Shown here piece after piece: positions 588 to 44,488 of a stretch of 44,610 bases of DNA. Position 1 is the stretch's first letter; every line of letters starts with the position of its first letter. Both the position numbers and the translations under genes were made by a program. Origin of the DNA: Candidatus Poseidoniaceae archaeon. GTDB lineage: Archaea > Thermoplasmatota > Poseidoniia > Poseidoniales > Poseidoniaceae. The DNA lies in assembly GCA_938084455.1 (NCBI GenBank), contig CALKDX010000057.1, positions 1-44,610 on the forward strand, given 5' to 3'. The notes beneath the pieces were generated by a model. That model worked only from the letters and a program-made list of their open reading frames with translations, did no database searches and was not told where the DNA came from.

Positions 588-3500
588 TTAATCGTGCCGT
601 ACGATGTTTCCTTCTGAATCTTTGTACCACCATTCGTTGGCGGCTTTATCGTGATACCACCAGTAGCCATCCGAACCTCGAACCCAATCGGTTTCTTCTG
701 AATCTGTATCGGTGCTCGTGGCCGCTGTGCTTGCGCTTGCCGCCGCTGCAGTTGCCTCGACGTGAACCACTTCATCTTCCTCTTCATACTCATCATCTTC
801 TAACTCAGAGGAATACTCATCCCAATCGTATTCGGCTTTGGAACCTTTGCGACGGGTCATCCTCGCAGCATAGAGAAGACCGGTGAGGATGATCGAGACG
901 AACAACAAGGCAGCAACGCTTCCGAGAACGGGGTTGACATTGCCAAACACACGCTCGGACAAGGATTCTGCTCGTGTTGGTCGCACATCGATGGACGGTC
1001 CACTCGAAGTTTGGTCGTTTTCGAGCGTGACTTCAATCCATTGAAGACCAGGTGATTCTGGATTCCAATCGACTTGAACAGGCACTTCGCCCCCTTGCTG
1101 AACTTCTGCTGAAGTCCGTCTTAGTGTGGAGCGGTTGCCATCTGCGTTGACAATGGTGAACACGACATCGACGCTACCATCAAGGGTGCCGGTGTTTTTC
1201 ACATAGGCTGTCACAATCGATGTTTGACCGACTTCAATGATCACACGTGAGTATTCGACAGAACCCTGTTCAATTTCGAACTGTGGCTTGAGCCACTCCA
1301 TTTCCCAAACGCCAACCGGCGTTCCGACGGGAGTTGCCCCGAGCCCCAAGACTTCATTGTCGGCGAGGTCCCGACCAGAAACGACGACATGCAGTTCCAA
1401 TCGGTTCTCCAGCATCTCTGCCGTGACCACGCTCAAATCAATGCTGCCGAAGACTTCCAATCTCAGACCTGAAATTTCAGTACCGACCAGCGTCAATGGT
1501 TCCACGCCATTACGAAGTCGGTCGCCAGTCGCTTTTTCTTCAACCCACCAGACAAGTTCGAGGGAATCAACCTCAAGTCCACCTTCTTCGGAAAGCATGA
1601 CTCGAACTTCATGTATATCTGCAGCTAAGATGGCTGCTGGTCTCGGATTCAAAACTTCGACAGGCTCAGGTCCAGTTCCATCGACGACAATCCACCGAAC
1701 TGAAGTTTCCTTGTCGGTTGCATCAACGCCTTGGCCTTGTAAACATCCAACGCTCCAGGTGAGTGGTAGAGTGCCTGACTGGGTGGGTGCACGGAGTTCC
1801 ATCGACCAGACACCCTCGAAGGTTGTTGCAGAATAAGTTGTACCTGCAAACAAGACATTCACTTCGCAATCAAAGACCGGTACAGCATTGGTTTGGCTAA
1901 ACACAACTCCACCAGCGACCTCAAGCGGACTGTTCGGGGCAAGCCGTGCACCGTCGCCAAGCAGTGAGCCTTGAGAGAGGATCAGACTGACGGATTCCTC
2001 AGGGATTTCCATCGCTGCAGAGAAGCGCCAACGGTGTTCGGGGAAGGCCTTGAACACTTCTTGGCCAGCGCGATCAATGACGCGCACGCCAGGCTCTCTG
2101 CGGGTCTCTCCCAAATCGGGAGTTGTCCATGCAAGCATGAATTCAATGTTCAGCGTGATGTCGCGTTCGTATGGGTCTGCTGGCCCGTTTGCCCCCAACA
2201 TTGTGCAATCAATGATGATGAGGTGAGGGCTTGTTGTGGTGCAGTTACCGGTCGAGAAATCCCACTGTATTGGCAAGGTATCGCTGCCTTGGTTCGAGGC
2301 CAATTCCACAAAGACATCGGTGAGGTCAGAGCCTCCGTTCGGCTCAGTGAGTTCGACGTTGATGGTGTAAGGCGTCTGGGGGTGCAGCCAAGGTTCGCGC
2401 CCCGTTTCGTAAGCGAACGCACCAGAGGCGACAGCAGGGGCGCCATCAATTGCGAGTTGGTACATGAACAGGTGTTCACCACTTTCGTTGGAGCCACCTT
2501 TCTCGATTGCCTGACCGGCATCATCGGTGCCTGAAATGTACACTGCCACCTTCTGTCCAAGGCTACCACCAGTGTCATCGAGAAGCAATGTGTACTGGCC
2601 GATTAACGACGTCAAATCATTGGGCACATACAAGCCAAGACCCTGATATTCACCCGGATCTGGCCATTGGTTCGCATTGTCATCATCGATCCATTCGCGC
2701 CATACCATGGCTTGAACGTTGGTTGGAAGCACAGGCTGGTCTGTGATTTGGATTTGGATGGTTTGAGTGCTTGAGGGTGTACGGTGATCGTAGAGATCCA
2801 TCGAGGTCGAGAGCACCTGTGGATTGACAGAGTCCACGTGGAAGGTCCGTTCAAAGATGGCATCCTCGGTCAAACCCGAACCGTTGAGCGAAGTCAATTC
2901 AATCCGCCATGTCAACGTTCCAAAGGTGAACGGGACCGCATCGGAGTAGTTCCAGTAATTCTCATCGAGCATCGTGGTGTTTGCCACCATCGTTTCTCCG
3001 CGGTACAATGATAACATCGCATCGCCATCTGCGAAGGCGTCTGTCGTGTCAAGGCCTTCAAAACCAACGCGCACTGAGAGGTCAACATCAATTCCTGCTT
3101 TGAGATAGTAGTCGGCTGAATTCAGGGTTCGAGATGCACTGACATCGGTGAACATGACCTCTTTGATTTCAAGGTCGTTTTCGTAGCCTTGCCCTCCAAT
3201 GGACCCCCACACATGAACCGACGGAATCGAAATGACGCTGTTGGAGAGCACCAACCTAGAACGAACGGTCATGACTTCGGCATCATCCCAACTCGGTTCG
3301 ATGCGGAAGGTGACGCTGGTGGTGACTTGAACGCCACTCTCGACAACCACCAATGCGTGATCGGGATGGAGTTCAATGTGTTCGGAAGCACCAAGGCCGA
3401 CCGAACCACCTGCAAACGGCAACAACCAGGTTCCAGTGGTGGTTCCATCGCTGACTTCCAAACGGGCCATCGAAGCTTGTGAACCATAGACATTGTATGT

Positions 3501-25095: not shown

Positions 25096-26265
25096 ATGAA
25101 CATCGAAGCGAGCGCTCCGGGAAAATGCATCCTGTTTGGGGAGCATGCTGTTGTCTTTGGTCAGCCTGCTGTCGCAGTGGCTATCGAGCAGCGAATCCAT
25201 GTCAGCATCCAGCCTATTGAAGGCGACGACTGGACGCTAGAAGGCACGAAATTTAATCCAAGAAAGCACCCTCACCTCAACACCTTGCGTAGGCTGCTGT
25301 GGCCGAGCAAAGACGGCGCTCCTGCGCTTTCAATTGAAATCCAAGGAGACATCCCTCGTGCATCGGGGCTTGGCTCCTCTGCAGCGTTGAGTGTGGCCGC
25401 ATCAGCAGCAATGCGAGCAGCACGAGGCCGATGGGTCATCGAATCTGAGCATGGTCATGTTTGGACTGAAGGTTATTCGAGCGAAATCGAAGACACTGAT
25501 GCCTACACAGGTAAGAACTCAGGAATACGCACGGACATCTACGCCAAAAAACAACGTCAACTTTTGGGCAATGATGCGTTAGATCTTGACGAATGTTCGA
25601 TGATTGGTCATGCAGTAGAAGCAGCCGCCCAAGGTGGTCGAGCCTCGCCAATGGACGCCTCAACTTGCGCCCATGGGGGTGTGATTTTACTCAGCGATCA
25701 AATCGAGTCAAACAACGATTATCTGTACCAGCGTCAATTGAAGATGAGCGATGGAATGCGCACTTGGGAACTGCACGACCTCGGCGTTCCGAAAGGAGGA
25801 GAAGAAGTCTACTTGGTCATTGGAAACACTGGCGTGCATGCCCCAACAGCAGATCAGGTGGCCAAGGTTGCCAAAGCAATTCAGGATGAGCCTGAACGAA
25901 TGAAAGAAATCGAAACAATCGGCCTGATTGCTCGTAGGGGCATTGAAGCTCTGAAAAACGGTGATTATGAAGCGGTTGGAAGGGCCATGACAGAGAATCA
26001 AGTGATGCTCAGAGGGTTGGGTGTCTCCTGTCATGAGTTGGACGACCTTGTTCGGGCCGCAGCCCCTTCTTCGCTCGGTGCAAAACTCACGGGTGCTGGA
26101 GGCGGCGGTTGTATGGTCGCTCTCACCCGCAATCCAGAGATCACAAGCGAAGCAATCAAGAATGCTGGCGGAAAGGCTCTCGTCTCGAAATTTGGCAACG
26201 AAGGAATGCGCCTTGAAACGCCTGATTGCGAGCCATTTTGGTCCCCTCAAATTCGTTCTTCTTAA
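25096..26265 (+). CDS. mvk: Mevalonate kinase
   Basis: A 389-residue GHMP-family kinase that phosphorylates mevalonate at the 5-position in the pathway to archaeal isoprenoid lipids. Motif I is SAPGKCILFGEHAVVFG near the N-terminus. The ATP-binding loop is PRASGLGSSAALSVA. GGRASPMDASTCAHGG carries the expected catalytic Asp in the archaeal variant of the SGxDN motif. Motif 3 is KLTGAGGGGCMVAL. An insert at about 115-150 (IESEHGHVWTEGYSSEIEDTD) makes it longer than typical archaeal enzymes of about 310-330 residues. The gene is divergent from the Fe-S oxidoreductase and lies 72 nt upstream of TBP, which has its own TATA box. No other mevalonate-pathway gene is in the window. Confidence 0.93.
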   Translation: MNIEASAPGKCILFGEHAVVFGQPAVAVAIEQRIHVSIQPIEGDDWTLEGTKFNPRKHPHLNTLRRLLWPSKDGAPALSIEIQGDIPRASGLGSSAALSVAASAAMRAARGRWVIESEHGHVWTEGYSSEIEDTDAYTGKNSGIRTDIYAKKQRQLLGNDALDLDECSMIGHAVEAAAQGGRASPMDASTCAHGGVILLSDQIESNNDYLYQRQLKMSDGMRTWELHDLGVPKGGEEVYLVIGNTGVHAPTADQVAKVAKAIQDEPERMKEIETIGLIARRGIEALKNGDYEAVGRAMTENQVMLRGLGVSCHELDDLVRAAAPSSLGAKLTGAGGGGCMVALTRNPEITSEAIKNAGGKALVSKFGNEGMRLETPDCEPFWSPQIRSS

Positions 26266-26316: not shown

Positions 26317-26337
26317 TGGTTGGCATTCGCTTTGGAT

Positions 26338-26958
26338 ATGACTACTGATGAAGAACGGCTAACCGTCGTGAACGTGGTTGCCAGCACCCGAGTTGCTGAG
26401 GAACTAGATCTACCAGATATTGCAATTCAATTGAATTGCGAATACGAGCCAGAACAATTCCCTGGTGTTGTGTATCGAGTGACCGAGCCAAAGCTCGCTA
26501 TTCTCATGTTCCGCTCTGGCCGTGCAGTGTGCACCGGTGGAAAGAACGAAGACAACATTCACACAGGTATCGAACGCATGATCAACGACCTACGGGCTGC
26601 TGGCATCGAAACATGGAACCTCGACCAAGTTGAAATTGAAGTCCAAAACATGGTCGCAACCTACGCCCTCCACTACCCTGAGGACTATCCTGGAAACGAC
26701 AAGTTCACCGGAGAACCACAAGCCGGTGTGCCTCGCAAATTGAACTTGAACAACCTGACGTTCCACCTACCATTCGACAAGGTCGAATATGAGCCAGAGC
26801 AATTCCCTGGCCTCATCTACCGCCTTGACTACCCTAAGGTCGTCTGCTTGATTTTCGGCAGCGGCAAGATGGTGATCACCGGTGCTCGACACAAGGACGA
26901 AATCCTCGAGGCCGTTGAAATCATTAAGGACGAATTGGCAGATTTGCTGGAATATTGA
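26338..26958 (+). CDS. tbp: TATA-box-binding protein
   Basis: A 206-residue general transcription factor that binds promoter TATA boxes and recruits TFB and RNA polymerase. It has the two direct repeats of the TBP saddle. EYEPEQFPG occurs in both halves (about residues 34-42 and 152-160), each followed by a Y-R-[VL] strand and by a LMFRSGRAVCTGGKN-type or LIFGSGKMVITGARH strand-turn. The N-terminal TVVNVVASTRV is the usual first strand. It is longer than the usual 180-190 residues because of an insert of about 20 residues between the repeats (HYPEDYPGNDKFTGEPQAG). The start at 26338 follows from the TATA spacing. TBP is likely autoregulated by its own strong box, though that is only a suggestion. 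Confidence 0.97.
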   Translation: MTTDEERLTVVNVVASTRVAEELDLPDIAIQLNCEYEPEQFPGVVYRVTEPKLAILMFRSGRAVCTGGKNEDNIHTGIERMINDLRAAGIETWNLDQVEIEVQNMVATYALHYPEDYPGNDKFTGEPQAGVPRKLNLNNLTFHLPFDKVEYEPEQFPGLIYRLDYPKVVCLIFGSGKMVITGARHKDEILEAVEIIKDELADLLEY

Positions 26959-27003: not shown

Positions 27004-30000
27004 TTGAGCGTGTGGCGTAGCATGCGCCCGAGCGTGACGCGAGCCATTCCGGCATTTTTGCTGGTCTTCTTGTTGTTCTCAAGCGTGCAAACTCCACTGC
27101 TCCAAAGCAGTCTTGAAAGCCCGACTACGCCCCTGTTGTCAAGCAGCCATGACCCTGGTGTGAGCGATGTACCCACATGGCGAGTTGGGGATAAATGGAT
27201 TTACTCCGGCATCTTTGATCCAACATTGCTCGTAACCAACACTGGTGTTCAAGCCACAGTTGGAGAAATTAATGGCGACACCACGATGGAGGTGCTCGGC
27301 ATCACTGAACAGTCCGTCGACAATATGTCGGTGTTGGCCTATACCCTTCGCTCATCTGCGAACTTCGATAAGTCCGGAGTTTCGCTTGAAGGCTATGATG
27401 GCAATGTCTACATCACATACAGCCAAACAGAATACCTCCGTGTCAGTGATTTGGCCAGCCTTCGAAGCGAACTTGACATGTACATTCGCTTCGTTCCGTA
27501 TGGAATCTCAAGCCTGACACAAATTCTTGGCGACATTACAATCACAACAAGTTACAGTCCAGTCTCGGAAACATACGACTTCCCATTGCGTCTCGATGAA
27601 CAGTGGACAACCACAACCACCTCATTCGCTCAATGGTCGGGATCAAGCGATTACATCACACCGTTCCCACCCCCAGTAAGCGACACCAACAGCACCACTT
27701 GGGAAGTTGCAAGCGTTGGAAAACCAAGCAACGCCTACGGCCAAACCATTGGCTATGGAGGATGCAATGCGTCGTATGAGCTTCAGTCAGTCAACAGCGA
27801 TGGTGTGTCAACTGGCTACAGGTGGTATTGCCCCGAAGTATCGAATTACGCTTGGCTTCACACAGAGGATGACATTGGCCTTACCATTGATTTCCGACTC
27901 AAACGCTTCATTCCGGTGGGTGCGAGTGGAGTTGACGAATACAGCAATCCCGGAACACGAGACTCGTGCCTCAATGTGGACCTCGAAAATCCAATTACTG
28001 CTCTTAACTCGCCAATGGGCGTTTGGGTAAATGCCTCCACCTCATGCTTCTCCAACGTAGACAACATCGGAATTGAATTGCGTCACGAAACCACTGGTTC
28101 ACTCCAATACGCCTCAACAGCAAGCAACGGTACGGCCTACTTTACGCTCCAAGTGGGTGATGCAAAAGACCCATCCGCCACCTTACTTGATTGGGCGAGC
28201 CATGGGATTGTCGCCCGAATCAATCCTTCGAGTCAATCCCCAACAACAACGGTTGGCGTCACCACTGTGACCCTCGATGAATTCATTGTCGGATTGGATT
28301 TAATCGCCAGCGAAGACCTTGCCAAGGTGCTCCGCAACCGAAGCGGAACGCTGACGGAATTAAATTCGCTTTCGGGATGGAATGTGCTTCCCGGTGATGA
28401 ATTACTGGTCGAAGTGGGGGTGCAAAACAGAGGCATCACCACCTCAACAGCCTCGACACTCGATGTGACCGGGCCTGACGGACAAACAACCGCTTACACG
28501 CTACCGCCCTTGGCGAGTTACTCCGCACACAAAGTGAATTTCAGTTGGACCGTACCAGAAGATCAATCGATCGGTGTGCTACCAATCACTTGGAACGCTG
28601 ACCCAAACGACGTCAACGCTGCTGATGTCAATGAGGGCAACGACATCGCACAGTTAGCCATGTTCGTAGGCAGGCTTCCAACGCCGGTTGTTGAAAACGC
28701 AACAGCACTCACACTGGAACAAGTGACCCTGAGTGCTGCCAACAGTTTTGATGAAGACGGTGGAGACATCACCTGTGAATTTGAAATTCCGTTTGATGAT
28801 GGCACACGTACCTGGGATTACATCACTCTTCCTTCCGACGACTGCAGTGTCAATTGGACTTGGATGGATGATGGTGAATACCCTGTACGGGTTACGGTTC
28901 TCGATGAAGAGCGTGATGAAACAACGGCCACTCTCCTAGCATCGATTGGCAATAGGGCGCCAAAAATCGAGATCAAGAGCGCACGAAGTGAGGCGAAGGT
29001 CGAACATCCAATCACGCTCTATGCGTACGCTAACGATTCGGATTCTGAGGACATTTGGCCTGGCGTGGTCGATGTGTTTTGGCCCGACGCTTTGTGCCAA
29101 GAAGGCTACTACACCCGGGTATGCACCACAACCGCTCCAACAGAAGGAATTCATACCTTCACTGCTGTCGGGACGGATGACGATTCATCGACAACCACCG
29201 CCACCATCGACATTCAATTCACCAATATCGCACCCCACGGTACAACCATTGCTTTGCTGATTGATGACGCCTTTTTGGAAAGCGATGAACAGCAAATATG
29301 GCAGCTGAATGAGGATGAAATCGTCAATGTGCGTGGCCAAGCGCTCGATTCGATTGACGATCTTGAATCCTTGACACACACATGGTGGCCTGACGGTCAA
29401 GAACCATCGCTCATGTACACTTACTCGGGCCGAGTGTCCAACTTCCCGATGATGTGGTCCACCTCAGGGTTGCACACCATCCGTTTGGAAGTGACCGATA
29501 GCGACGGCGTCTCAAGCGCAGTGAATGAACGCTGGGTCAATGTACGCAACGTACCGCCAGTGATTGAACCCTTGGTCTCCATTCTTCCAATCGCAGAAGG
29601 CCAATCCATCACCATCACTGGCAACTCAACCGACACGCCAAGCGATCGAGCAACGCTTGTGAAATGCTGGGATGTCGACCCTGGTATTGACAGCGATGAT
29701 TTCGGTGGTGCAGACGATGATTGTGACATCAAGGGTGATGAATTGACCTATGTGTGGAATCGCAGTGGCACTCATACGATCATCTACCACGTCACAGATG
29801 ACGATGGGGCGCAAACCAGCGAGGTTCTCACCGTGGAAGTGCTCAACATGCCTCCAATCGTGAGGTTGCAAAACCTTGCTTGTATGGCTTACCAAACTTG
29901 TGTGATGAGCGCTGAACAAACCATCGATTCAGCGAATGATATCGACACGTTGACCATTGTCTGGGACCTCGACATCACCGTTGACAGCAACGGAGACGGC

Positions 30001-30624
30001 ATCAAGGACAACGACGCTGATTTGGTTGGAACCACCGTCCAACACATCTTCCGCACCTCTGGCATGGTTCGTGTCAAGGCCATGGCATGGGATGAAAATC
30101 CGGAACGACCGGGCCAAGCGACAATGGTGATCGATGTCGCACCACCAGAGCGAAATTCAATCGAACAAATCAGTGCTGGACTGATAGGCGAAGAAGCGAA
30201 TTCGATTGCACAATTTGGTCTACTCATCGGAATCCTGTTGTTGTTGGCCCTGCTGACTCGAAGGCGAAAAGCGCCCTCTGAATCTCCTTGGGCTGGTTCT
30301 GAAGAAGGCATGCTCGACGATGCATTTGACACGCCTACAATGATTGAACAGGCACAAGCAAGACGTCCTTCAAGCCCGCCGCCAATGAGCAATTTCATCC
30401 AAGAAAGCGTGGAGCCACCTACACAGCAAATTGATCATTCATTCGAGGCACCTCCAGCACCTGTGCCTGAAATGGGAAGCAAAGAAGCAGGCCCGCCAAT
30501 TCCCGAGGCAGGACTTCCTGACGGATGGACAATGGAACAATGGGGCCACTACGGCCATCAGTACCTTGCCGCTCAAGGGTCTCAAAACCTAACTTTTTCC
30601 CAAAATGGCACCGAACTCAAGTAG
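27004..30624 (+). CDS. Giant surface protein A with CARDB and PKD-like domains, TM anchor and Trp-rich C-terminal motif
   Basis: A 1206-residue type I membrane protein and paralogue of the next gene. After a hydrophobic signal (PAFLLVFLLFSSVQ) comes an N-terminal domain starting DVPTWRVGDKWIYSG, which is shared with the paralogue. A CARDB-like domain (VEVGVQNRGITTSTAS) and several PKD-like repeats follow (ANSFDEDGGDI; repeated DDDG turns). Two repeats contain Asp-rich, probable calcium-binding loops, one bracketed by Cys (CWDVDPGIDSDD...DDCD). One TM helix lies at about 1068-1087, followed by RRRK, a Pro/Glu/Ala-rich cytosolic linker, and the motif GLPDGWTMEQWGHYGHQYL near the C-terminus. The start is uncertain: TTG 27004, GTG 27010 and ATG 27022 are all in frame, and GGAG at 26984 is rather distant. 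No enzyme signature was seen; a structural or adhesive role is likely. Confidence 0.85.
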   Translation: MSVWRSMRPSVTRAIPAFLLVFLLFSSVQTPLLQSSLESPTTPLLSSSHDPGVSDVPTWRVGDKWIYSGIFDPTLLVTNTGVQATVGEINGDTTMEVLGITEQSVDNMSVLAYTLRSSANFDKSGVSLEGYDGNVYITYSQTEYLRVSDLASLRSELDMYIRFVPYGISSLTQILGDITITTSYSPVSETYDFPLRLDEQWTTTTTSFAQWSGSSDYITPFPPPVSDTNSTTWEVASVGKPSNAYGQTIGYGGCNASYELQSVNSDGVSTGYRWYCPEVSNYAWLHTEDDIGLTIDFRLKRFIPVGASGVDEYSNPGTRDSCLNVDLENPITALNSPMGVWVNASTSCFSNVDNIGIELRHETTGSLQYASTASNGTAYFTLQVGDAKDPSATLLDWASHGIVARINPSSQSPTTTVGVTTVTLDEFIVGLDLIASEDLAKVLRNRSGTLTELNSLSGWNVLPGDELLVEVGVQNRGITTSTASTLDVTGPDGQTTAYTLPPLASYSAHKVNFSWTVPEDQSIGVLPITWNADPNDVNAADVNEGNDIAQLAMFVGRLPTPVVENATALTLEQVTLSAANSFDEDGGDITCEFEIPFDDGTRTWDYITLPSDDCSVNWTWMDDGEYPVRVTVLDEERDETTATLLASIGNRAPKIEIKSARSEAKVEHPITLYAYANDSDSEDIWPGVVDVFWPDALCQEGYYTRVCTTTAPTEGIHTFTAVGTDDDSSTTTATIDIQFTNIAPHGTTIALLIDDAFLESDEQQIWQLNEDEIVNVRGQALDSIDDLESLTHTWWPDGQEPSLMYTYSGRVSNFPMMWSTSGLHTIRLEVTDSDGVSSAVNERWVNVRNVPPVIEPLVSILPIAEGQSITITGNSTDTPSDRATLVKCWDVDPGIDSDDFGGADDDCDIKGDELTYVWNRSGTHTIIYHVTDDDGAQTSEVLTVEVLNMPPIVRLQNLACMAYQTCVMSAEQTIDSANDIDTLTIVWDLDITVDSNGDGIKDNDADLVGTTVQHIFRTSGMVRVKAMAWDENPERPGQATMVIDVAPPERNSIEQISAGLIGEEANSIAQFGLLIGILLLLALLTRRRKAPSESPWAGSEEGMLDDAFDTPTMIEQAQARRPSSPPPMSNFIQESVEPPTQQIDHSFEAPPAPVPEMGSKEAGPPIPEAGLPDGWTMEQWGHYGHQYLAAQGSQNLTFSQNGTELK

Positions 30625-30644
30625 GAGTACCGCCTCGGTGGGTC

Positions 30645-33600
30645 ATGGGTCAACTTCGACCGATTGTTTTTGGACTAATCTTTTTGATGTTTGCGACCCC
30701 GTTTGGCGCTTATGTCACCTCGCCTCATTTCCTTGATGAGGATCACAATGCGTCCCACGCAGAAGGGTGGGACAAGGACATCGATGTGCCAACTTGGCGC
30801 ATTGGCGACGAGTGGGTCTACGACACCAAATTCGATGTTGCGCAACTCATCGCTCAAGCGAACGTTTCTGCATCATTAAACACCCTTACTGGGGAAACGA
30901 CCTACACCGTGGCAGATATCTTGTTCACCACAGTTGACGGCGTTCAGACCCTCGCTTACAAACTGGATATCAGTGGAGAGTTTACATCAGGCAACAGCGG
31001 TGCAACCCTCGAGGGTGTATCAGGACGTTTGAACATCGGGTATGACAGCGAAGACCTTGTTCGAGTTCGCGACCTTGCGGTGATCAACAGCGAATTCACA
31101 CTCGATGTCAAATTCAGACCATTCAACCTTGGTTTTTTGGAACAAGATATTGCTGAGATCACCTTTGACACCTTTTACGACCCACCCAAAGAAAAGTACG
31201 ATTTCCCTCTCCATCTTGGAGATCAATGGTACATGCCTTTCCAATCTGGTACCGGAGTCACAGGTACATCCGATTACTTTGATCCAAGTGAATTTGACAC
31301 GGCTGGTGGAGAAAACAACAGTTGGCAAATCACCGCAAAGGGAACCCCGACTGATGGGACGGATAACATCCAGTACACCGGCTGCGGTGATTCCTACAAA
31401 ATTAACGAAGTGAACGAAACGGGAGTTTCACAAGGCTACAACTGGTACTGCCCTGCTGTCCGTTACAATTCATGGATTTCAGTGTCCAACGCTGCTGGTT
31501 TCACCATCGACTGGTTGCTCAAGGAATACAATCCAACGGATTCCTACGGCGTTTCGCCAAGTTCTACACCCGGAACCCGCAACATCGAGATTGATGTCGA
31601 TATGCAATTATTGGCAACCCTCCCGGACACTGAGCAAACGCTGACTGCAAGTTATTTGACCTCACCAAGCGCTACACCTCAAGCCAACAAGAATTTGCAA
31701 GTCAGGTATGAAATCAACAATGATTTAGCAAGTCCAACCACCGATGGCAGCGGAGAAATAACTTACCAATTGAACGTCTCTAACCAAGTGGACACCACAC
31801 CTTCCAGCGATGACTTCACCAGCAACGGTGTCATCGTTTGGGACCCTGCCACTGAAATTATCGGGGCGACCACGATTGTGGTCGACCTGTCAGTCGTTGG
31901 CGTTGATTTGGTAGCACAAGCTGATTCAATCATCGTCAGCCGAACCCGCGACGGAGAGACTTCAATCCTGAGCCGGGTCACTGGCTACGGCGCTTTACCA
32001 GGAGACTTGATTGGGTTCTCAATCCCCGCTCAAAACCGAGGGGTTCTGACCTCGCCAGCGACTCAAATGGAAGTAACGACACCAGATGGCACAACCATTC
32101 GAGAGGATATCCCTGCAATTCCATCATACAGTGAAGCAAGGATCAGCGTCAATTGGACTGTCCCAGCGAACTCTGCAATTGGCAATCAGACGCTATCGTT
32201 TACCGTTGACCCCGACGAAGCGGTCACTGAGGATGCAAACAGGAGCAACAATGATGCTCAAATCAACCTCTTCATTGGCCGAGCGCCGACCGCAATGGTC
32301 GATATTGGCGACAACAAACTCACTTTTGAAAACATCACGCTCAACGCCACGGCAAGCTTCGACGAAGACGGCGGAGATGTCGACTGTGTGTTTGAGGTCG
32401 AATCACGCCCGGGCTTGATCGATGTCCTCGAAGCGCCAGACTGTTGGGTTCAATGGAACTGGACGGATGATGGCGAATGGGCGGTCAAACTTATCGTCAC
32501 GGATGAAGAACTGGACACGGACATTAAGATGTTCAATGTCACTGTTCTCAACCGAGATCCATACCTCAACTTGTCTCTGGTACCAAGCATCGATGTTGAA
32601 ACATCCATCACCATCGATGCAACCGATAGCGGCGACACCGATACAGTGTCACCACCAGGTCAGCAAGTCAGTATTTCTTGGCCTGGTATGGCGTGCGAAG
32701 AGGGACTCACTCAGCCTACATGCACCTTCACGCCGATGGCAGAAGGCACAATGATGATCACTGCAGTCGCAACCGATGATGACGGAGCGACAACAACAAT
32801 TGAAGCACCGTTGGATGTCCTCAACGTAGCGCCAACCCTTGCCGCACCAGAATTGTGGTACGGAGGAACGAATTTGAGCGCTGATGATGGTGTTTGGACG
32901 CTTGATGAGGACCAAGTTGCGCTCTTGCGCATCGGTGCCGACGACACGTTGTCGGACCGAGACGACATCAACGTTGAGTGGTCACCATCCGACCGAGATG
33001 CAAACTGGACAGAAACCACCCGAGGACCTGCGTCAACCGCAACCGTGTCGTGGTCCGCTTCGGGCTTGCACAACATCTCGGTTGTCGCCTACGATGACGA
33101 CGGTGCTCAATCGATGATTCAGACTGCAAAAATCAACATTCGGAACGTCCCACCAACCATTACTGGCTTGGGCTCAGATGTTCCTGTGTTCGAAGACGCA
33201 AATGTATCCTTCACCGCTATTGTTGATGACACCGCATCAGACCTACAGACGCTTGTTGTGTGCTGGGACATGGACGGATCAGTTGACAGCAACAGCGACG
33301 GAAACCCTGTCAACGACTGTGACAAAACTGGAATCGATATTACTGCGGCTTGGACAACACGAGGGGTTCGCCAAATCACGGCAACCGTCACTGATGACGA
33401 TGGTGCTCAAGCACTGGCATCGGTCAATGTCAGCGTGCTCAATCTGCCACCTTCGGCCACCATTACCAATTCCACGAGCGTCATTTCACTCATGGAGGGT
33501 GAAAACATTACCCTCTCGGGAATGACTTCTCGTGAAACTGAGGGCGACAAATTAACCCTCACCTACCAATGGGACAGCGACCACATTGACGGCGATTTAG

Positions 33601-34343
33601 ACGGAGTGAAAACTGGAGATGTTGATTTCACGGGACCAATGTACACCATTGAGGATCTTCCCGCCGGTCAATGGACCGTACAACTCACAGTGATCGACGA
33701 TGATGGTGAATCATCCACCGATACGATTCAACTTACGGTCACTGAGCGCCCACCTGACAATTGGATAGAATCTGTGAGCAATACAATCGGAACCGTACCT
33801 ACCGCAATCATTGGTGCGCTTGGAATCATTGTTGTCCTGCTCGCCGGATTCCTTCTGCTGACACGAAGGAAGGGCAATTCTGAGATGGATAATTTCTCAA
33901 ATTTCGCAAGCATGCCTGCTGGTGAACCGCCTGCACCTGCCATCAACGCAACTGTTTCGCAACCAATGGACTACGCCGCTCCTGCGCCTCAACAAGACAT
34001 CTACTCACAGGCTGCCTATGCGCCGCCAACTGCAACCCAAGAACAGGCGTTTGCTCCCGCTCAAACTTACGCAACTGCACCAGCAACGAAGGAAGATCCA
34101 TTCGCTGCTTTGGTGGACCCAACGCCTGCCGCTCTTGCTCCTGCACCTGTGCAAACCGGACCGCCATTGCCAGCAACTGGCCTCCCCGAAGGATGGTCAA
34201 TGGAGCAATGGAGCCACTATGGCGCTCAATACTTGTCTGCCCAACAGGGCCAACCGGCTGCAATTCAACCGGTAACTACTGATACCACACCGGCATCTCA
34301 ACCATCAAACATCTCCGGATTGCTTGATGATCTTGATTTGTGA
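30645..34343 (+). CDS. Giant surface protein B, tandem paralogue of A, with PKD-like repeats, TM anchor and Trp-rich C-terminal motif
   Basis: A 1232-residue type I membrane protein. The frame is open upstream into gene A, but the ATG at 30645, 20 nt after the A stop, begins a proper signal (MGQLRPIVFGLIFLMFATPF). Its domain order matches A: DVPTWRIGDEWVYDT N-terminal domain, CARDB-like region (FSIPAQNRGVLTSPAT), PKD-like repeats (ATASFDEDGGDV), Asp-rich loops (CWDMDGSVDSNSDG...NDCD), one TM helix at about 1052-1074 followed by TRRK, a Pro/Ala/Gln-rich cytosolic linker of about 120 residues, and GLPEGWSMEQWSHYGAQYL. The paralogues are diverged but align along their whole length, so the duplication is old. 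The stop overlaps a GTG of the SepF-like frame (GTGA), and the three genes very likely form one transcription unit. Confidence 0.87.
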   Translation: MGQLRPIVFGLIFLMFATPFGAYVTSPHFLDEDHNASHAEGWDKDIDVPTWRIGDEWVYDTKFDVAQLIAQANVSASLNTLTGETTYTVADILFTTVDGVQTLAYKLDISGEFTSGNSGATLEGVSGRLNIGYDSEDLVRVRDLAVINSEFTLDVKFRPFNLGFLEQDIAEITFDTFYDPPKEKYDFPLHLGDQWYMPFQSGTGVTGTSDYFDPSEFDTAGGENNSWQITAKGTPTDGTDNIQYTGCGDSYKINEVNETGVSQGYNWYCPAVRYNSWISVSNAAGFTIDWLLKEYNPTDSYGVSPSSTPGTRNIEIDVDMQLLATLPDTEQTLTASYLTSPSATPQANKNLQVRYEINNDLASPTTDGSGEITYQLNVSNQVDTTPSSDDFTSNGVIVWDPATEIIGATTIVVDLSVVGVDLVAQADSIIVSRTRDGETSILSRVTGYGALPGDLIGFSIPAQNRGVLTSPATQMEVTTPDGTTIREDIPAIPSYSEARISVNWTVPANSAIGNQTLSFTVDPDEAVTEDANRSNNDAQINLFIGRAPTAMVDIGDNKLTFENITLNATASFDEDGGDVDCVFEVESRPGLIDVLEAPDCWVQWNWTDDGEWAVKLIVTDEELDTDIKMFNVTVLNRDPYLNLSLVPSIDVETSITIDATDSGDTDTVSPPGQQVSISWPGMACEEGLTQPTCTFTPMAEGTMMITAVATDDDGATTTIEAPLDVLNVAPTLAAPELWYGGTNLSADDGVWTLDEDQVALLRIGADDTLSDRDDINVEWSPSDRDANWTETTRGPASTATVSWSASGLHNISVVAYDDDGAQSMIQTAKINIRNVPPTITGLGSDVPVFEDANVSFTAIVDDTASDLQTLVVCWDMDGSVDSNSDGNPVNDCDKTGIDITAAWTTRGVRQITATVTDDDGAQALASVNVSVLNLPPSATITNSTSVISLMEGENITLSGMTSRETEGDKLTLTYQWDSDHIDGDLDGVKTGDVDFTGPMYTIEDLPAGQWTVQLTVIDDDGESSTDTIQLTVTERPPDNWIESVSNTIGTVPTAIIGALGIIVVLLAGFLLLTRRKGNSEMDNFSNFASMPAGEPPAPAINATVSQPMDYAAPAPQQDIYSQAAYAPPTATQEQAFAPAQTYATAPATKEDPFAALVDPTPAALAPAPVQTGPPLPATGLPEGWSMEQWSHYGAQYLSAQQGQPAAIQPVTTDTTPASQPSNISGLLDDLDL

Positions 34344-34345
34344 GC

Positions 34346-34350
34346 GGTGA
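34346..34350 (+). promoter_or_regulatory. GGTGA Shine-Dalgarno site of the SepF-like gene
   Basis: GGTGA ends 4 nt before the ATG at 34355 and just after the stop of surface protein B. It favours ATG 34355 over the overlapping GTG at 34340. Confidence 0.5.
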
Positions 34351-34354
34351 GTGT

Positions 34355-34927
34355 ATGGCAAGTCTTTGGCAATTTTTTGGTCTACCAGATCCCGAAGCAG
34401 GACAGAATGCAAAGCGGAATGAGGTTCAACAACCCGCTGTGGCGCCCCTGGCCACACAGCAGCAACTCACTCCAAAGCCGATTGAAAAGCCCCAAGCACC
34501 CGCTTTGATTCCAGAGCCAGTTGGTGTCCAACCGGCACGTAAGGAAATTCCACTTGGATGGCAAGGACCCGTCACTTCAGATGGCGAACCTTTTCATGAC
34601 TTAGGTGCGCTGCACAAAGCCACACCTGTCATTCCAAACAGAGCTTTGCGTTATGTCGCCCCCGACGTGATGAACCGCATCCCTACACGGGGAATCGCAA
34701 AACGCGTCAACCAAGGCGATACGGTGATTGTTGATCTACGGCCCCTTGTCCACATGGATACGCACCAAAATGTCTGCCGAAGGGAATTGAAACAGATGAG
34801 TGACGAAGTCGGTGTTGGCGTGTTTGCTCTTGATGCAGAAGACAAACTCCTGTTAATGCCCGGAAACGATGTCGTGGTCGATGTACAAAGCCACGAACTA
34901 GGACTGGGCGCTTTGCTTAACCCGTAG
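34355..34927 (+). CDS. sepF: SepF-like cell-division protein (DUF552-type fold)
   Basis: A 190-residue protein in three parts. Residues 1-10 (MASLWQFFGL) could form a short amphipathic membrane-targeting helix. Residues 11-80 are a Pro/Gln/Ala-rich linker. Residues about 85-185 look like the SepF core: a GDTVIVDLRPL strand at 121-131, a helix with CRRELKQMSDEVG, and the strand pair VFALDAEDKLLLMPG. This layout is that of archaeal SepF, which anchors FtsZ to the membrane and dimerises through its core. No FtsZ is in the window, and the assignment rests on fold-level pattern. The start is chosen by a GGTGA site; GTG 34340 would add five residues and disturb the helix. The gene sits directly behind the giant surface protein genes, which is unusual and suggests a functional tie. 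Confidence 0.6.
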   Translation: MASLWQFFGLPDPEAGQNAKRNEVQQPAVAPLATQQQLTPKPIEKPQAPALIPEPVGVQPARKEIPLGWQGPVTSDGEPFHDLGALHKATPVIPNRALRYVAPDVMNRIPTRGIAKRVNQGDTVIVDLRPLVHMDTHQNVCRRELKQMSDEVGVGVFALDAEDKLLLMPGNDVVVDVQSHELGLGALLNP

Positions 34928-34948: not shown

Positions 34949-34970
34949 GCTTTGGGCTTTAGTGGCGGCC

Positions 34971-36287
34971 ATGAGCAATTTTGCAAGTTTCAGGACCACC
35001 TCCACGGGGTCCTATCTTGCTTTATTTTTTGCATCAGGCCTCACAACGGTCCTCTTCATTGCTACAATGGTGTACCATTATGCCACAAAATCAGCATATT
35101 ATGAGATCCTATCTGCTGATTACAGCTCAATGATTTACATCATTTTGGCATGGGTATGCTTGGGTTGGCTCATGGCTTTAATTGCGGGAATTGGGTTTGA
35201 TGTCTTACCGCTCATCCATGGTGCTGCCCCCTTCCACGAATCCACAATGAGGCAATTCGTCATCCTCAACATCAGTGGGCAATTTTTCCTCACCCTATCC
35301 ACATTTATGTCGACACAAGAGATGATCGATGAATTTTCAACTGTGGGCATTGTTTTGCTTTCTCTAGGTGTGCTTTTGCTTGGCATGCCGGGAAGGCGCC
35401 TCGTCTCCGAATCTAAAATGTCGAAAGACAAAGACGAAGTTGGTGTTATGTCATTGCTGCCGGGAGCGGTGTTTCCTTTTTTTGCCACCATCATCATCGT
35501 CTGCTGGTTGTTGAGAGATACCGCGGGGATGCTCGAACTCGGGCGATCGGTCATGGTTGCTCTTTACATCCTGGTTACCGTTGTCATCATCGTGAGTCAC
35601 TTCAATCGCCGATTGAATTGGAGCATCATTGCTCCTGAAAAAATACAAACTCGATTGACCGTCTTTGCAGCAATCCTCTGCCTCCACATCCTCTTCTCAT
35701 TCCTTACCGGACGTGAAGATTCAGACACATACACATTGTTGGCTCAAATGAGTGATTATTCACTCGGATTGGCCCTCCTATGGGCATTCATTCTATGCAA
35801 TCCTCTTGACGTAGCGAAGAAGGCATTGTTCAATGGGGGGATGGGGCATAATCGATTGGTCTTTGCCGCCCTCTGGATGCTGCCGTTTTGCTCATTCCAC
35901 GCATTCAATTCTTCACAGTACATCGACAGACCTGGATCACCCGGATATGCAACTTTTCTCAGCACATCTGCCCTTCTCGCCATTTGGGGGTATTCCATGT
36001 ACCTGCACGAGGACCACCTGCACATCAACATCCACAAGCGGAGTTCGAGCCCACTTTTCTTGATGTTCTTCTTGACCGGATTTGTTTCCATTCAAATTTT
36101 GTTCATCAAGAATTGGTTGGACTTGGGGCCAACCAACACAGAACAAACCATTTGGATTGCATCAATCGTCATTGGATCCATCCTCCTAACGGTGGATTTC
36201 TTGCGCAGAACCATGCTGAGTTTGGACACCTGGCACAGAATACCGATGTTCTATGGCAGATACATCCAAGACAAGTCACTGGAATAA
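34971..36287 (+). CDS. Uncharacterised 12-TM membrane protein
   Basis: A 438-residue integral membrane protein that I do not recognise. About twelve hydrophobic helices are spread evenly over the length, with short loops. Notable polar spots are GFDVLPLIHGAAPFHES after helix 2, a charged cytosol-like loop (SESKMSKDKDEVG) after helix 4, and a His-rich loop (MYLHEDHLHINIHK) after helix 10. Several membrane-embedded or membrane-edge histidines (VYHY, LIHG, VSHF, CLHI, SFHAF) could ligate haem or metal, and twelve helices is also the number in haem-copper oxidase subunit I, but the catalytic histidine pattern of that family is not seen. A transporter is equally possible. It has its own TATA box, 44 nt after the SepF-like stop. 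Its 3' end overlaps maf by 12 nt on the opposite strand. Confidence 0.75.
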   Translation: MSNFASFRTTSTGSYLALFFASGLTTVLFIATMVYHYATKSAYYEILSADYSSMIYIILAWVCLGWLMALIAGIGFDVLPLIHGAAPFHESTMRQFVILNISGQFFLTLSTFMSTQEMIDEFSTVGIVLLSLGVLLLGMPGRRLVSESKMSKDKDEVGVMSLLPGAVFPFFATIIIVCWLLRDTAGMLELGRSVMVALYILVTVVIIVSHFNRRLNWSIIAPEKIQTRLTVFAAILCLHILFSFLTGREDSDTYTLLAQMSDYSLGLALLWAFILCNPLDVAKKALFNGGMGHNRLVFAALWMLPFCSFHAFNSSQYIDRPGSPGYATFLSTSALLAIWGYSMYLHEDHLHINIHKRSSSPLFLMFFLTGFVSIQILFIKNWLDLGPTNTEQTIWIASIVIGSILLTVDFLRRTMLSLDTWHRIPMFYGRYIQDKSLE

Positions 36288-39520: not shown

Positions 39521-42500
39521 TCAGCAAGAGACCGTGCTCGAACAAATCGGGCAGGTTACCTTTCTCAACGTCATGTCTTTCACAACAAATTTCGCGTTGC
39601 AATCAGGGCAAACCACATCACGCTGGGGTGGGGCAATTCCCGGTAGTGGAGGTAAACCATCCAGTGGAGGAAGACCGCCAGGCCCTGGAAGTGGGAGTGG
39701 CGGGAGTGCTCCAGGTGCTGGGAGCGCCGGTAATTCTGACGGTGCAGGGAGGGGTGATTCCATAACAGGTGCTGGTGCAGATTGGATTTTCTCTGTGATT
39801 TCTGCGAACTCCCGTTGTTGCTTTCGCTTCATTCGCCTGTTGAGGCGGGCATTGCCTTCTCCAGATTCTGCTTTGGCTTCGAGGCTATCGGCAAGGCTTG
39901 GCTCATCTTCTTCTATCACCGCAACGGGCGATGATTCAGTCACGACCAAGTCGTCTTGTTCGATGTCGATGGCTAGAAGTGGTCCTTGGTCATCTTCAGG
40001 TTGAATCATCAATTCAATTCCTTCATCTGTTTCGCCAACAATTGCAGTAGCAACCAACGCTTTTTGTTCTTCCTTTCTTCCCCTGCGAATTGACACCACA
40101 ACGGCAGTGAGGAACAAAACCATAGTGAGGCCTACCACTGACAAAATGGTGATTTGCATCTGCTGAGAGCCTGGCAGTGGAGCAAGCAAGGCATCGATGA
40201 ATGAACGTTCCTCGACAATTGGATTATCGGCTGCAGATAAGGAGGCAAGCGTACGTAGTTTGAGCGAACCTGAAGCTGTCGAGAGCATCACAATACCATC
40301 GTATTCCATGCCTGCAAAGCCTTCAAGGAAGCCCTGTGACATAAGGGCAGACATACCTGAGACTGGCTGCTGATCCGAGTCAGTGAGCAAACCATATCTT
40401 GTTGTTGGTCCGTAAGTGTTGATTTCGTCGTACATTATTTGGATGCCTTGTTGTGCTTCATGCAGTTCAAGATTCATGACACCAGGCGCTTCGATTCTTG
40501 AAGCATCATCGATGCTCCAAGCGTTGTCGGTCACGGCATAGGCAACTTGAGCATCTCGCCCCCGGCCTTCAATCCAAGCGGCAGTGAGCACGTCATCGCC
40601 CTCCAGTTGTGTCACAATCAATTTGGCGCCGGAGGTATCGTCTCCAATGGAGGATTGGAAATTCCAAGAGGACATCGTTGGCTCCCCATGGGTGTACATC
40701 AAGCCCACACGGTCGATTCCGGTTACATCATTTCGCATCTGTTGGTACAAGATGTGCAGGTTTTCGGCACCGTACGAAACAGCAAGTGAGTCTCCCTTCG
40801 ATTGACGAATGTCGATGTTGGAAAGGACATTGATTGGACTACCCCAACTTGTAGGGCTGTCCGGATTCATCGAGACGAGTGTGAAAATTGAAGTTACATC
40901 CTGCCAAGAACCACCTGTTGCTATGTCGCGGTGGTATCCAGCAAGGACAACCGTATCGTCGTATTCAGTCAGTGCAAGGCCCCAATAAGCGCCTTCAGAC
41001 AGTTTGACTGCGGGCATTTGGTAGTGGACGGGTGTGATCATTTCGACCTTTGAAAGAGAGGTCATTCCAATGTTGGTCAGGGTGTACCCATCAGCACTCA
41101 CGCTCTTACGCGTCCATGCCGCATGGATTGCTCCATCTTCTCGCTCGAGCACAGCAAGTTCGCCGCCCCACATGTCTTCGAGCAAGATGTCTGTTTGAAT
41201 TGACATTGAGGAAGTGATGCTTCTGGCGTGGAGTTCGCCATCGACGGTGGTGAACAACAGCGCACCGTCATCAAGGCCGATGAAATCGACGGGTACTTCT
41301 CCATCAGAAAGGTCGATGCTCACTTGAGAGCCCAAGGATACATCGTCAACCACGAGCATGAATCGATGTTCGCTGAATGCTGCCTCGACTCCATTGCCAA
41401 GTAAGACTGCTTTGAATTCGATTGCACCAATCGTTTCGCTGGGCATTGCTTGGAATGAAACAGAAGCATAACCAGAACTTGTGTCGGAACCCGGGACTAC
41501 CATGAGGTCTTGTTCCCCTACCTGAATCCATCCGTCTTCTGACCAACGCTCGAGCCTCACATCCAAATCAAGCGCATCGGATTGACCGAGGTTATCGATG
41601 CGCAATCGAACGGTGAAGGGTTCTTCTGGTACGGGAATGTTGGGGCTTGTTGTGACGGCTCCAGGCAAGAAGCGAAGCATCGCTTCTACGGGACGTTCTT
41701 CGACTTGGAACGTAAATGTGTAGATGTTGTCTTCGGGAGTTGGATCTGCATGTTGGCTGGTCGGATCAATGATGATCGACACCTCTTGCTGTCCAGCTTC
41801 TGTGGCCCACCAATACAGCGTGACCTGCTGGCTCTCACCTTCGTTTAGGATTGAAATGCTCGTTTCTGAGGGATATGTTTCCGAGTTCGAACCCTCGGCG
41901 TCCAAGCGCACATAGACATCGGTTGCATCCAAATCCCCAACATTGGCAATCGTGAAGTCGATTTCAAGCACCGTACCTGCAACCGCAGAGTACACTGGCA
42001 GGCCTTGGTCCATGATTTCGACTGAGCCCTGATAGGTAAAATCCGGGGCTGCAGGCATGTTGTCAACGGTGTATGTGCGACGAATTGTATCGGTAGCCAC
42101 GCCACTCTCATTGACCATTCTGAAACTTAAGCGGTGTGAGCCATCTTCAACGGTGTTTGAGTTCCATGTGAAGGACCAATCTTGGCTCCCGACTTCCATA
42201 TACTCGAGTTCCTCTCCGAGGTTCCATTCTCCGCTGTCCACTTTGAATTCAAGGCGGTCTGGCTCGAGCCCTTCTGCAGTCCCGGTAAATTCCACGGACC
42301 CTTCCAGTGATGTTCCAACTGATGGACCAGCAAGGGTAACTGCCATACGAGCGAGGTTGACGTAGCGAGCCTCAATTGAGGATTCATCGCCATCGTCGCT
42401 GACAGCACGGGTCAAGATAAGCACATACTCTTCGTCACCACGGATCCAATCGGACTTCACAAACACATCGAGGTACCAGTTTTCAACGGTGCCGCCAGCA

Positions 42501-44488
42501 TCAACCCAGCCTTGGAGTTCTCGAACAGTACCGGATTCGAGATGTTGTTCAAGACGAACTTGGACAGCATCGTAATCGGCATCGTCTCCGTTGATTGCAG
42601 TACCCGATACACGCGAGCGATCGCCTTCAATCCAATAGGTGCCGTTGTTTGGAGCCTCCATTGTGACGTGGTCTCCAGTACCGTTTCCTGTTGGAGGTGG
42701 CGTGATGATGCCACCGCCTTCAAGGGGTGTGCATGAGCGTTCAAGAACCGTATCAATGGCGCATGAGGCATCGATGAGGCCGAAGCCCCAATCTGAATTC
42801 CAACGGTCCGAAACCGAAGACTCTGAAGCGCTTCCTCGTTGTTCGGAAGAATTGCGCAAAATATCCTTTACTTCCTGGGGTGAAAGCGAGGGTTCAGCTT
42901 GCAGCATCAGTGCTACGATTCCCGATGCAATCGGGGTCGCCATGCTTGTGCCGTCCTTTTCGTCGTATTCATTTGAGGCAAGTGGACGGCCGGGCTGGCC
43001 GGGGAATGAAGACCCGGTTTGGGCGGTGGCTGACATAATTCCAGAACCATACGCGGTGATATCCGGCTTCAGTTCGTCCCAGTCATCGTCATCATTGTCG
43101 CTAAGTCGAGGGCCAGTGTTGGAATAATCCGCAACGTTGTCATTGGTTCGGTTAATTGTTCCACGATCGGTCGCCGCTCCAACTGAAATTGCGTCGTCAG
43201 CACTCGCAGGGGATGGCACCCTGTTGGTACCATCATTACCCATAGCGACGATACAGACAATCGATGCGTTGACCGCATCGTTGACCAACCGCGCTTCTGC
43301 TCCAGATCCGTTGTCGCCTTGGTCACCAGGGTTGAGTGGGGACGAGGCGGAGCCGAACGACATCGAAGCAACTTGGATCCCTCTGCTTGAGGCGTTGTTG
43401 TTCCAGTCGGTGTTCACATTGTCAATGATCCATTGAATGCCATTGAGTGATGCCTGTGAATTGGTGCCACCGGTATCGGTGAGGACCTTCACGTCGACCA
43501 AGTAGGCGCCCGGTGCGGTACCCATGTGAACTCTTGATGAATCACCTGTGCCGACAACCGAACCTGCAACGTGGGTGCCGTGGCCGTTCCCATCGTCTGG
43601 GTCCTGAGTGCCATCAGTCGCACCGGCAGAGGATGTCGCATCGTAGCCTGCGACCCATTTTTGGTCATCATAAGAAGTCGGATCTTGGTCGGGTTCATCG
43701 TCCTCATCATCGAAGTCGTTGAGGGATTCATGCTCGTTGTCAACCCCTGTATCCAACACCGCAACAACGACGTTTTCACCGGTGTAGCCCCGCTCGTAAG
43801 CGGTCTGCGAATAGACTTCGGATGGGCGTGCTCTCGATGCTTTGGCTGCAACATCATTCGATGGTATCATGACATTTTGCATTTCAATCACAACCACACC
43901 GTACGAAGCATAGATGTCCATCAGCGCACTGATTGGCACCTTGTCCACTGCAACCGAATCGATGTCTTTGAGCACTTGGAACCAAGCGCCTTCTTCTTCG
44001 CCGACCCATCCGTGGGCCATGAGAATAGCACGCAGCGTCTCGATTTGACTGACCTCAGGGGCCCACGCATAGTCGACGACAATCGCCACCGTCTTGCGTC
44101 CATCATCACCAATGATGGCCGTAGGAGAAATTGATTCAGCTCCAGCCAAGACGCGTTGCAAGCGATCATCCATACCGTTCCAATCGAGGTCGGGACCGTA
44201 TCCTTGCCACCAGTTCATCGCCTCAGCCGAAGGGCGGCCGTCCCGACTAAACTCTCGCAGTGGCCGTTTACACAGCGAATCACCGCACATCAACGGCGGA
44301 AGCCCGTCAACGAGGATTGGCTCGGCAAACAACGGTTCAATCACGGGGTCTTGATCGGCTGGCTGGGTTGCAATTGCACCCAAGTCAGCAACCAAAAACA
44401 CAGCCACTAACAGCAGCGAAATGAGGGGTGTTTTTCTCGAAGGCTTGTTCATCAAATCCATCCACTCCGCCCTTTGGTGTTGGCGCAT
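39521..44488 (-). CDS. Giant membrane-anchored subtilisin-like protease with CARDB domains and cytosolic zinc ribbon
   Basis: A 1655-residue type I membrane protease. A signal lies at about 17-40. Residues about 130-215 resemble a propeptide (TVAIVVDYAWAPE...GVVVIEMQNV). The S8 catalytic domain spans about 230-590, with Asp246 (VLDTGVD), His303 (NGHGTHVAG), oxyanion Asn418 (AMGNDG) and Ser515 (DGTSMATP). An acidic DDEDDEPDQDP insert after the Asp box probably binds calcium. Ig/CARDB-like domains follow (IANVGDLDATDVYV, IDNLGQSDALDLDV), then a beta-rich region and a TM helix at about 1440-1465. The cytosolic part is acidic, then Pro/Leu/Gly-rich, and ends in a zinc ribbon with CPDC (1627-1630) and CPIC (1646-1649). 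It is expected to degrade proteins outside the cell. ATGs at 44461 and 44452 are alternative starts. It leads an operon with glmS. Confidence 0.92.
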   Translation of the reverse strand: MRQHQRAEWMDLMNKPSRKTPLISLLLVAVFLVADLGAIATQPADQDPVIEPLFAEPILVDGLPPLMCGDSLCKRPLREFSRDGRPSAEAMNWWQGYGPDLDWNGMDDRLQRVLAGAESISPTAIIGDDGRKTVAIVVDYAWAPEVSQIETLRAILMAHGWVGEEEGAWFQVLKDIDSVAVDKVPISALMDIYASYGVVVIEMQNVMIPSNDVAAKASRARPSEVYSQTAYERGYTGENVVVAVLDTGVDNEHESLNDFDDEDDEPDQDPTSYDDQKWVAGYDATSSAGATDGTQDPDDGNGHGTHVAGSVVGTGDSSRVHMGTAPGAYLVDVKVLTDTGGTNSQASLNGIQWIIDNVNTDWNNNASSRGIQVASMSFGSASSPLNPGDQGDNGSGAEARLVNDAVNASIVCIVAMGNDGTNRVPSPASADDAISVGAATDRGTINRTNDNVADYSNTGPRLSDNDDDDWDELKPDITAYGSGIMSATAQTGSSFPGQPGRPLASNEYDEKDGTSMATPIASGIVALMLQAEPSLSPQEVKDILRNSSEQRGSASESSVSDRWNSDWGFGLIDASCAIDTVLERSCTPLEGGGIITPPPTGNGTGDHVTMEAPNNGTYWIEGDRSRVSGTAINGDDADYDAVQVRLEQHLESGTVRELQGWVDAGGTVENWYLDVFVKSDWIRGDEEYVLILTRAVSDDGDESSIEARYVNLARMAVTLAGPSVGTSLEGSVEFTGTAEGLEPDRLEFKVDSGEWNLGEELEYMEVGSQDWSFTWNSNTVEDGSHRLSFRMVNESGVATDTIRRTYTVDNMPAAPDFTYQGSVEIMDQGLPVYSAVAGTVLEIDFTIANVGDLDATDVYVRLDAEGSNSETYPSETSISILNEGESQQVTLYWWATEAGQQEVSIIIDPTSQHADPTPEDNIYTFTFQVEERPVEAMLRFLPGAVTTSPNIPVPEEPFTVRLRIDNLGQSDALDLDVRLERWSEDGWIQVGEQDLMVVPGSDTSSGYASVSFQAMPSETIGAIEFKAVLLGNGVEAAFSEHRFMLVVDDVSLGSQVSIDLSDGEVPVDFIGLDDGALLFTTVDGELHARSITSSMSIQTDILLEDMWGGELAVLEREDGAIHAAWTRKSVSADGYTLTNIGMTSLSKVEMITPVHYQMPAVKLSEGAYWGLALTEYDDTVVLAGYHRDIATGGSWQDVTSIFTLVSMNPDSPTSWGSPINVLSNIDIRQSKGDSLAVSYGAENLHILYQQMRNDVTGIDRVGLMYTHGEPTMSSWNFQSSIGDDTSGAKLIVTQLEGDDVLTAAWIEGRGRDAQVAYAVTDNAWSIDDASRIEAPGVMNLELHEAQQGIQIMYDEINTYGPTTRYGLLTDSDQQPVSGMSALMSQGFLEGFAGMEYDGIVMLSTASGSLKLRTLASLSAADNPIVEERSFIDALLAPLPGSQQMQITILSVVGLTMVLFLTAVVVSIRRGRKEEQKALVATAIVGETDEGIELMIQPEDDQGPLLAIDIEQDDLVVTESSPVAVIEEDEPSLADSLEAKAESGEGNARLNRRMKRKQQREFAEITEKIQSAPAPVMESPLPAPSELPALPAPGALPPLPLPGPGGLPPLDGLPPLPGIAPPQRDVVCPDCNAKFVVKDMTLRKVTCPICSSTVSC

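Follow-up and report, generated by a model that had tools for sequence, protein, structure and literature searches.

We analysed a window of 44,610 nucleotides (contig CALKDX010000057.1 of assembly GCA_938084455.1) from the genome of an archaeon of the order Poseidoniales (marine group II), family Poseidoniaceae. The subject of this work is a block of five genes in this window, all on the + strand, that encode mevalonate kinase (mevK), a TATA-binding protein (TBP), two giant surface proteins here called A and B, and a SepF-fold protein here called SepF2 (Table 1). SepF2 is a second SepF paralogue of this genome; its gene is tightly paired with the giant encoded directly ahead of it, and this giant ends in a short conserved peptide. 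We consider it quite possible, if short of probable, that SepF2 is a duplicated adaptor dedicated to the giant, which would bind the C-terminal peptide of the giant and so link the surface coat to the FtsZ ring and to division.

The third gene of the cluster encodes a SepF-fold protein (190 residues), as the initial annotation had proposed, and structure prediction and profile comparison agree on this identity. Single-sequence searches of Pfam, NCBIfam and the Protein Data Bank (PDB) with SepF2 of the window returned nothing useful. At its curated cut-off, the Pfam family PF04472 matched neither this protein nor any other in its genome, and 3 of 32 relatives matched it (best E-value 0.051). 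We take this failure as a limit of the model and not of the fold, because relatives of SepF1, the other SepF of the genome (see below), mostly miss PF04472 too. A profile of the 32 relatives found 3zie (SepF-like) as its best match in the PDB (E 0.044), and a profile-profile comparison by hhalign with other Thermoplasmatota SepF gave a Prob of 93.5 and an E-value of 2.3e-7. The AlphaFold core of SepF2 has a pLDDT >90, and the first 11 PDB matches of a Foldseek search with this core are all SepF (TMt 0.70-0.81), the best being 3zie of A. fulgidus (E 1.9e-4, target-normalised TM 0.80). SepF2 carries the DLG motif of canonical archaeal SepF and conserved basic residues in helix alpha2 (CRREL). 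Its N-terminus holds a strongly conserved hydrophobic stretch, MASLWQFFGLPDPE (MxxLWxFFGLPDP), positioned like the membrane helix of other archaeal SepFs, and the hydrophobic moment of this N-terminus does not exceed what shuffling its residues gives (0.15). Two starts had been offered for the gene. The ATG at 34355, 11 nucleotides past the stop of B and preceded by a GGTGA site, is retained, since relatives in nearly all loci start 4-14 nucleotides past the giant stop and open with M-x-x-LWxFFGLPDP; the GTG at 34340, whose GTGA overlaps the stop of B, was dropped.

That SepF2 would be the sole SepF of its genome is ruled out by SepF1, encoded at a separate locus (C77:15467-15814). A PF04472 scan of the phylum gave matches outside the giant cluster in two Poseidoniales genomes, and a search with the protein found in this way recovered SepF1 in 96 of 97 Poseidoniales genomes and 21/21 genera. 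SepF2 was found in 187/194 Poseidoniales genomes, also in 21/21 genera. SepF1 of the window genome has a weak cross-match to SepF2, and comparison of the two profiles gives an E-value of 1.1e-8. The canonical archaeal SepF profile is closer to SepF1 (E 1.3e-11) than to SepF2, and SepF1 is without the hydrophobic N-terminus, a putative membrane helix, that SepF2 retains. In a SepF tree both group together against other Thermoplasmatota SepF; SepF2 forms one clade with 100/100 support on a very long stem (3.94 changes per column), and SepF1 is paraphyletic around it, an arrangement that long-branch effects could produce. SepF2 and the N-terminal domain of the giants are both absent from five genomes of the sister group in the class. 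Because of the tree grouping and this absence, SepF2, a fast-diverged paralogue present only in Poseidoniales, most likely stems from a duplication on the Poseidoniales stem.

Several observations accompany the SepF1 survey. At the two SepF1 loci read fully, one per family, a proteasome subunit gene lies on one side and, on the other, a gene whose product reads as a ZPR1-like zinc-finger protein, with a tRNA synthetase gene beyond. Poseidoniaceae SepF1 (8 loci; L213:3755-4390, G000:C77) bears an N-terminal QxSLDxF or QxTLDxF that resembles the PCNA-binding PIP box and is absent in Thalassarchaeaceae; such a motif could hint at a link of the replication clamp with division. In the sister group (loci L175-L178), the single SepF found appears to be without an N-terminal membrane helix. 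Tubulin-family genes occur in all relatives, with two or three matches in almost every one, and in most (L130, L140 and similar) a short (about 300-350 residues), divergent third tubulin-family protein occurs besides two FtsZ.

The giants were described in the initial annotation as paralogous type I membrane proteins 20 nucleotides apart, which the sequences and the gap counted from the stop of A to the start of B confirm. Both have about 1,200 residues, with N-terminal domains that are about 34% identical, and both carry a signal peptide (counted from ATG 27022 in A), PKD and CARDB domains, a single transmembrane helix (followed by RRRK in A) and a proline-rich cytosolic tail. Judged from the sequence, by the signal peptide, the beta and PKD/CARDB domains, the one transmembrane helix and the basic stop-transfer residues, A and B have secreted ectodomains anchored in the membrane. 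A fold search of the giant N-terminal domain against the PDB gave weak all-beta matches only, with no clear relative and no known S-layer fold. The domain has 1-4 matches per sampled Poseidoniales genome, mostly just the one or two copies at the sepF2 locus. In a tree of the giants, A and B form separate clades within Poseidoniaceae. Poseidoniaceae genera with a single giant (g7, g8 and g9, and g5 by count) keep the SepF2-linked one with its DxLDx-like end, and A is missing; the placement of g9, on a long branch, is unsure.

The order of giant(s) and sepF, for which conservation across Poseidoniales was in question, holds throughout: a giant lies directly upstream of sepF2 in 20/20 genera (one locus each). 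In the phylum sample, the giant domain is present in all 63 SepF2-bearing Poseidoniales genomes, and wherever the two share a contig the giant lies 3.0-4.3 kb upstream of sepF2 on the same strand (56/56 assessable genomes; in the remaining 7 they are on different contigs). From the giant stop to the sepF2 start the distance is 4-14 nucleotides in nearly all loci, the exceptions being L081, L083 and L087 with 86-93 nucleotides. Downstream of sepF2, nothing in common was detected between the two families, and synteny ends right there. In genus g10, TBP and mevK are inverted, yet giants and sepF2 are still joined.

An aromatic motif had been proposed both as the end of the cytosolic tails and as the docking point for SepF. 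Both giants do carry the motif, but B runs about 35 residues beyond it and ends in LLDDLDL, a peptide previously overlooked. The consensus GLPxGWxMEQWxxYGxQYL occurs in 11 proteins of the window genome, in 13 of G002, in about 12 of G004 and in 3 in each of two Thalassarchaeaceae genomes. Its carriers are mostly large single-transmembrane surface proteins with the motif at the C-terminal side, and no Pfam match to the motif was found in the proteins scanned. A Poseidoniaceae genome has about 12 carriers, and in Thalassarchaeaceae, the sister family, many of the giants linked to SepF2, from several genera, lack the motif; we therefore rejected the aromatic tail as non-specific for SepF docking. 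It may serve some other machinery as a general tail; in Poseidoniaceae it is found as a genome-wide C-terminal tag of large single-transmembrane surface proteins.

The extreme C-terminus of B is a better and more specific candidate for SepF2 docking. We looked for the pattern [DEGN][ILVF][DE][ILVFMW] among the six C-terminal residues and found it on the SepF2-adjacent giant in 10/10 Poseidoniaceae genera and in 3/10 Thalassarchaeaceae genera. It occurs in 1 of 161 other long open reading frames, taken as background, and none of the 23 other proteins with the aromatic tail has it, the one match listed being a giant of this same locus. Giant ends such as LLDDLDL, LLDDFDL and LLDGLDI look like the FtsZ ends YGIDFVA, DGIDIIL, DDIDFVR and ADLDFIK of Thermoplasmatota; those of Poseidoniales FtsZ are IEFVN and GFQRFD. 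Crystal structures show the tail of FtsZ stretched out in a groove of SepF that is bounded by alpha2, beta3 and, in archaea, eta1. Among the residues bound there are LDDFI in M. smithii and DLDV in C. glutamicum, and part of the contact is made by Asp-Arg/Lys pairs (PMC8178401). Because the giant ends resemble FtsZ ends and SepF2 has basic residues in alpha2, we infer that SepF2 may bind the giant C-terminus in this groove.

A mechanism can be outlined on this basis. After duplication on the Poseidoniales stem and fast divergence, SepF2 would have become a cytosolic adaptor for the giant encoded ahead of it. A short hydrophobic helix at the N-terminus of SepF2 would rest against the cytosolic side of the membrane, and the core would form dimers as in archaeal SepF. 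The groove that is the FtsZ-peptide site in other SepFs would then take the acidic-hydrophobic end of the giant (LLDDLDL and variants), instead of or beside FtsZ. SepF2 could thereby cluster the ectodomain of the giant or set its position, most plausibly at the FtsZ ring, joining surface coat and division. In its most specific form, in which a SepF evolved in one archaeal order binds the cytosolic tail of the giant through an FtsZ-like peptide and completes a transmembrane bridge from coat to FtsZ ring, we hold the proposal to be doubtful.

Several points weigh against SepF2 as an adaptor between giant and ring. The peptide pattern is missing on the SepF2-adjacent giant in 7/10 sampled Thalassarchaeaceae genera, where the ends are DIEALF[DE][DE] in four, EELIGEEE in g19 and acidic tails in g12 and g16, and 3/7 upstream giants (g6, g10 and g16) carry it too. 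The pattern was also written once both peptide sets had been seen; because it was chosen in this way, the background count of open reading frames is the sole fair control. SepF1 could do all FtsZ anchoring, and mevK and TBP, which have no known link to the system, are nearly equally conserved neighbours, so that the synteny may be partly regional.

If SepF1 alone serves FtsZ, SepF2 might act outside division and serve the giant only, scaffolding it from the inner side of the membrane or aiding its assembly (in coat clustering, export or turnover). The very long and fully supported SepF2 branch, the retention in the same genomes of a SepF1 closer to the canonical form, and a sepF2 that stays with the giant gene rather than with ftsZ all speak for this account. 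It leaves a lone FtsZ tether that oddly lacks the putative N-terminal membrane helix kept by SepF2, and we think it unlikely. Quite improbable, in our view, is that the pairing reflects regional synteny or co-transcription with no physical interaction. The conservation of mevK and TBP would fit this, as would the variable genomic context described for archaeal sepF (PMC8178401), but the close spacing in most loci, a pairing that survives the inversion in g10, the loss of synteny between families right past sepF2, and a lone remaining giant that is the SepF2-linked one argue against it. Least probable is SepF2 as a working FtsZ membrane anchor, with the giant a divisome component or merely co-expressed and no direct C-terminal contact: its membrane-helix-like N-terminus (with no such helix in SepF1), DLG motif and basic alpha2 residues would suit that role, but SepF1 is likewise universal in the order, and this reading would explain neither the conservation of the giant C-terminus nor the exclusive pairing.

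Table 1. Features of the giant-sepF2 block in the window
Feature	Position	Strand	Remarks
mevK, mevalonate kinase gene, first of conserved block	25096..26265	+	TIGR00549 above cut-off; upstream of TBP in most loci
TBP gene, conserved neighbour upstream of giants	26320..26958	+	PF00352 E 3e-52
Giant surface protein A	27004..30624	+	signal peptide 27022-27093, N-terminal beta domain, CARDB, PKD repeats, transmembrane helix 30205-30255, cytosolic tail
Tail motif of A, GLPxGWTMEQWxHYGxQYL	30487..30579	+	common to about 11 proteins of the genome
Giant surface protein B, SepF2-adjacent paralogue	30645..34343	+	start ATG
All-beta N-terminal domain of B	30777..31937	+	AlphaFold pLDDT 90.5, pTM 0.88
Transmembrane helix of B, then RRK (cytosolic side)	33801..33860	+	sequence
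Tail motif of B, GLPEGWSMEQWSHYGAQYL	34179..34235	+	
LLDDLDL, very C-terminus of B	34320..34340	+	candidate SepF2 docking peptide, resembles FtsZ C-terminal domain
GGTGA, ribosome-binding site of sepF2	34346..34350	+	4 nucleotides ahead of ATG 34355
sepF2	34355..34927	+	N-terminal hydrophobic helix 34355-34396 (membrane-targeting-like), linker, SepF core 34640-34885

Other genes of the window include one directly 3' of sepF2 (34962-36287) for a multi-transmembrane protein of 441 residues, which has no Pfam match and is present in only some Poseidoniaceae genera (g1, g3, g8 and g10). On the - strand are genes for an S8 subtilase of 1,655 residues with CARDB and Ig-like domains (39521-44488) and for a 1,724-residue protein with zero Pfam matches at E 0.001 (588-5762).

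Additional SepF paralogues within one cell are known from bacteria, where Streptomyces has the SepF-like SflA and SflB; SepF2 is likewise an extra paralogue, here in an archaeon. We know of no linkage of SflA or SflB to surface proteins. Compared with archaeal SepF (M. smithii 7AL1/7AL2, A. fulgidus 3ZIE and H. volcanii SepF), SepF2 has the same core fold, membrane-helix-like start, linker and DLG motif; it differs in being a second paralogue, missed by single-sequence Pfam searches and always behind a giant, with putative FtsZ binding. The giant end is, like the archaeal FtsZ C-terminal domain (GID motif), short and acidic-hydrophobic, with an LDDF/DLDL-like core as in SepF-bound peptides, but it terminates a giant transmembrane surface protein and not a tubulin. 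In H. volcanii, an archaeon whose division uses FtsZ and SepF, CdpB1 and CdpB2 are additional partners in the divisome; these are PRC-barrel proteins, and neither a giant ectodomain nor a paired SepF paralogue is described for them (PMC12186497). Archaea have been reported with mostly one SepF per genome in variable context, in a survey whose main text names neither Poseidoniales nor Thermoplasmata (PMC8178401). Our literature search found no description of a pair of SepF and surface protein, and nothing on surface and PKD proteins of Poseidoniales.

What is new here is a paralogue of SepF whose partner appears to be a new one. Surveys based on PF04472 miss SepF in most Poseidoniales. For SepF of H. 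volcanii, a coordinating role in the synthesis of the cell wall at midcell has been suggested, with no partner known (PMC8187382). To the question of how the surface coat of archaea is coordinated with division by FtsZ, SepF2 and its giant, with the FtsZ-like peptide at its C-terminus, contribute a concrete candidate pair of partners.

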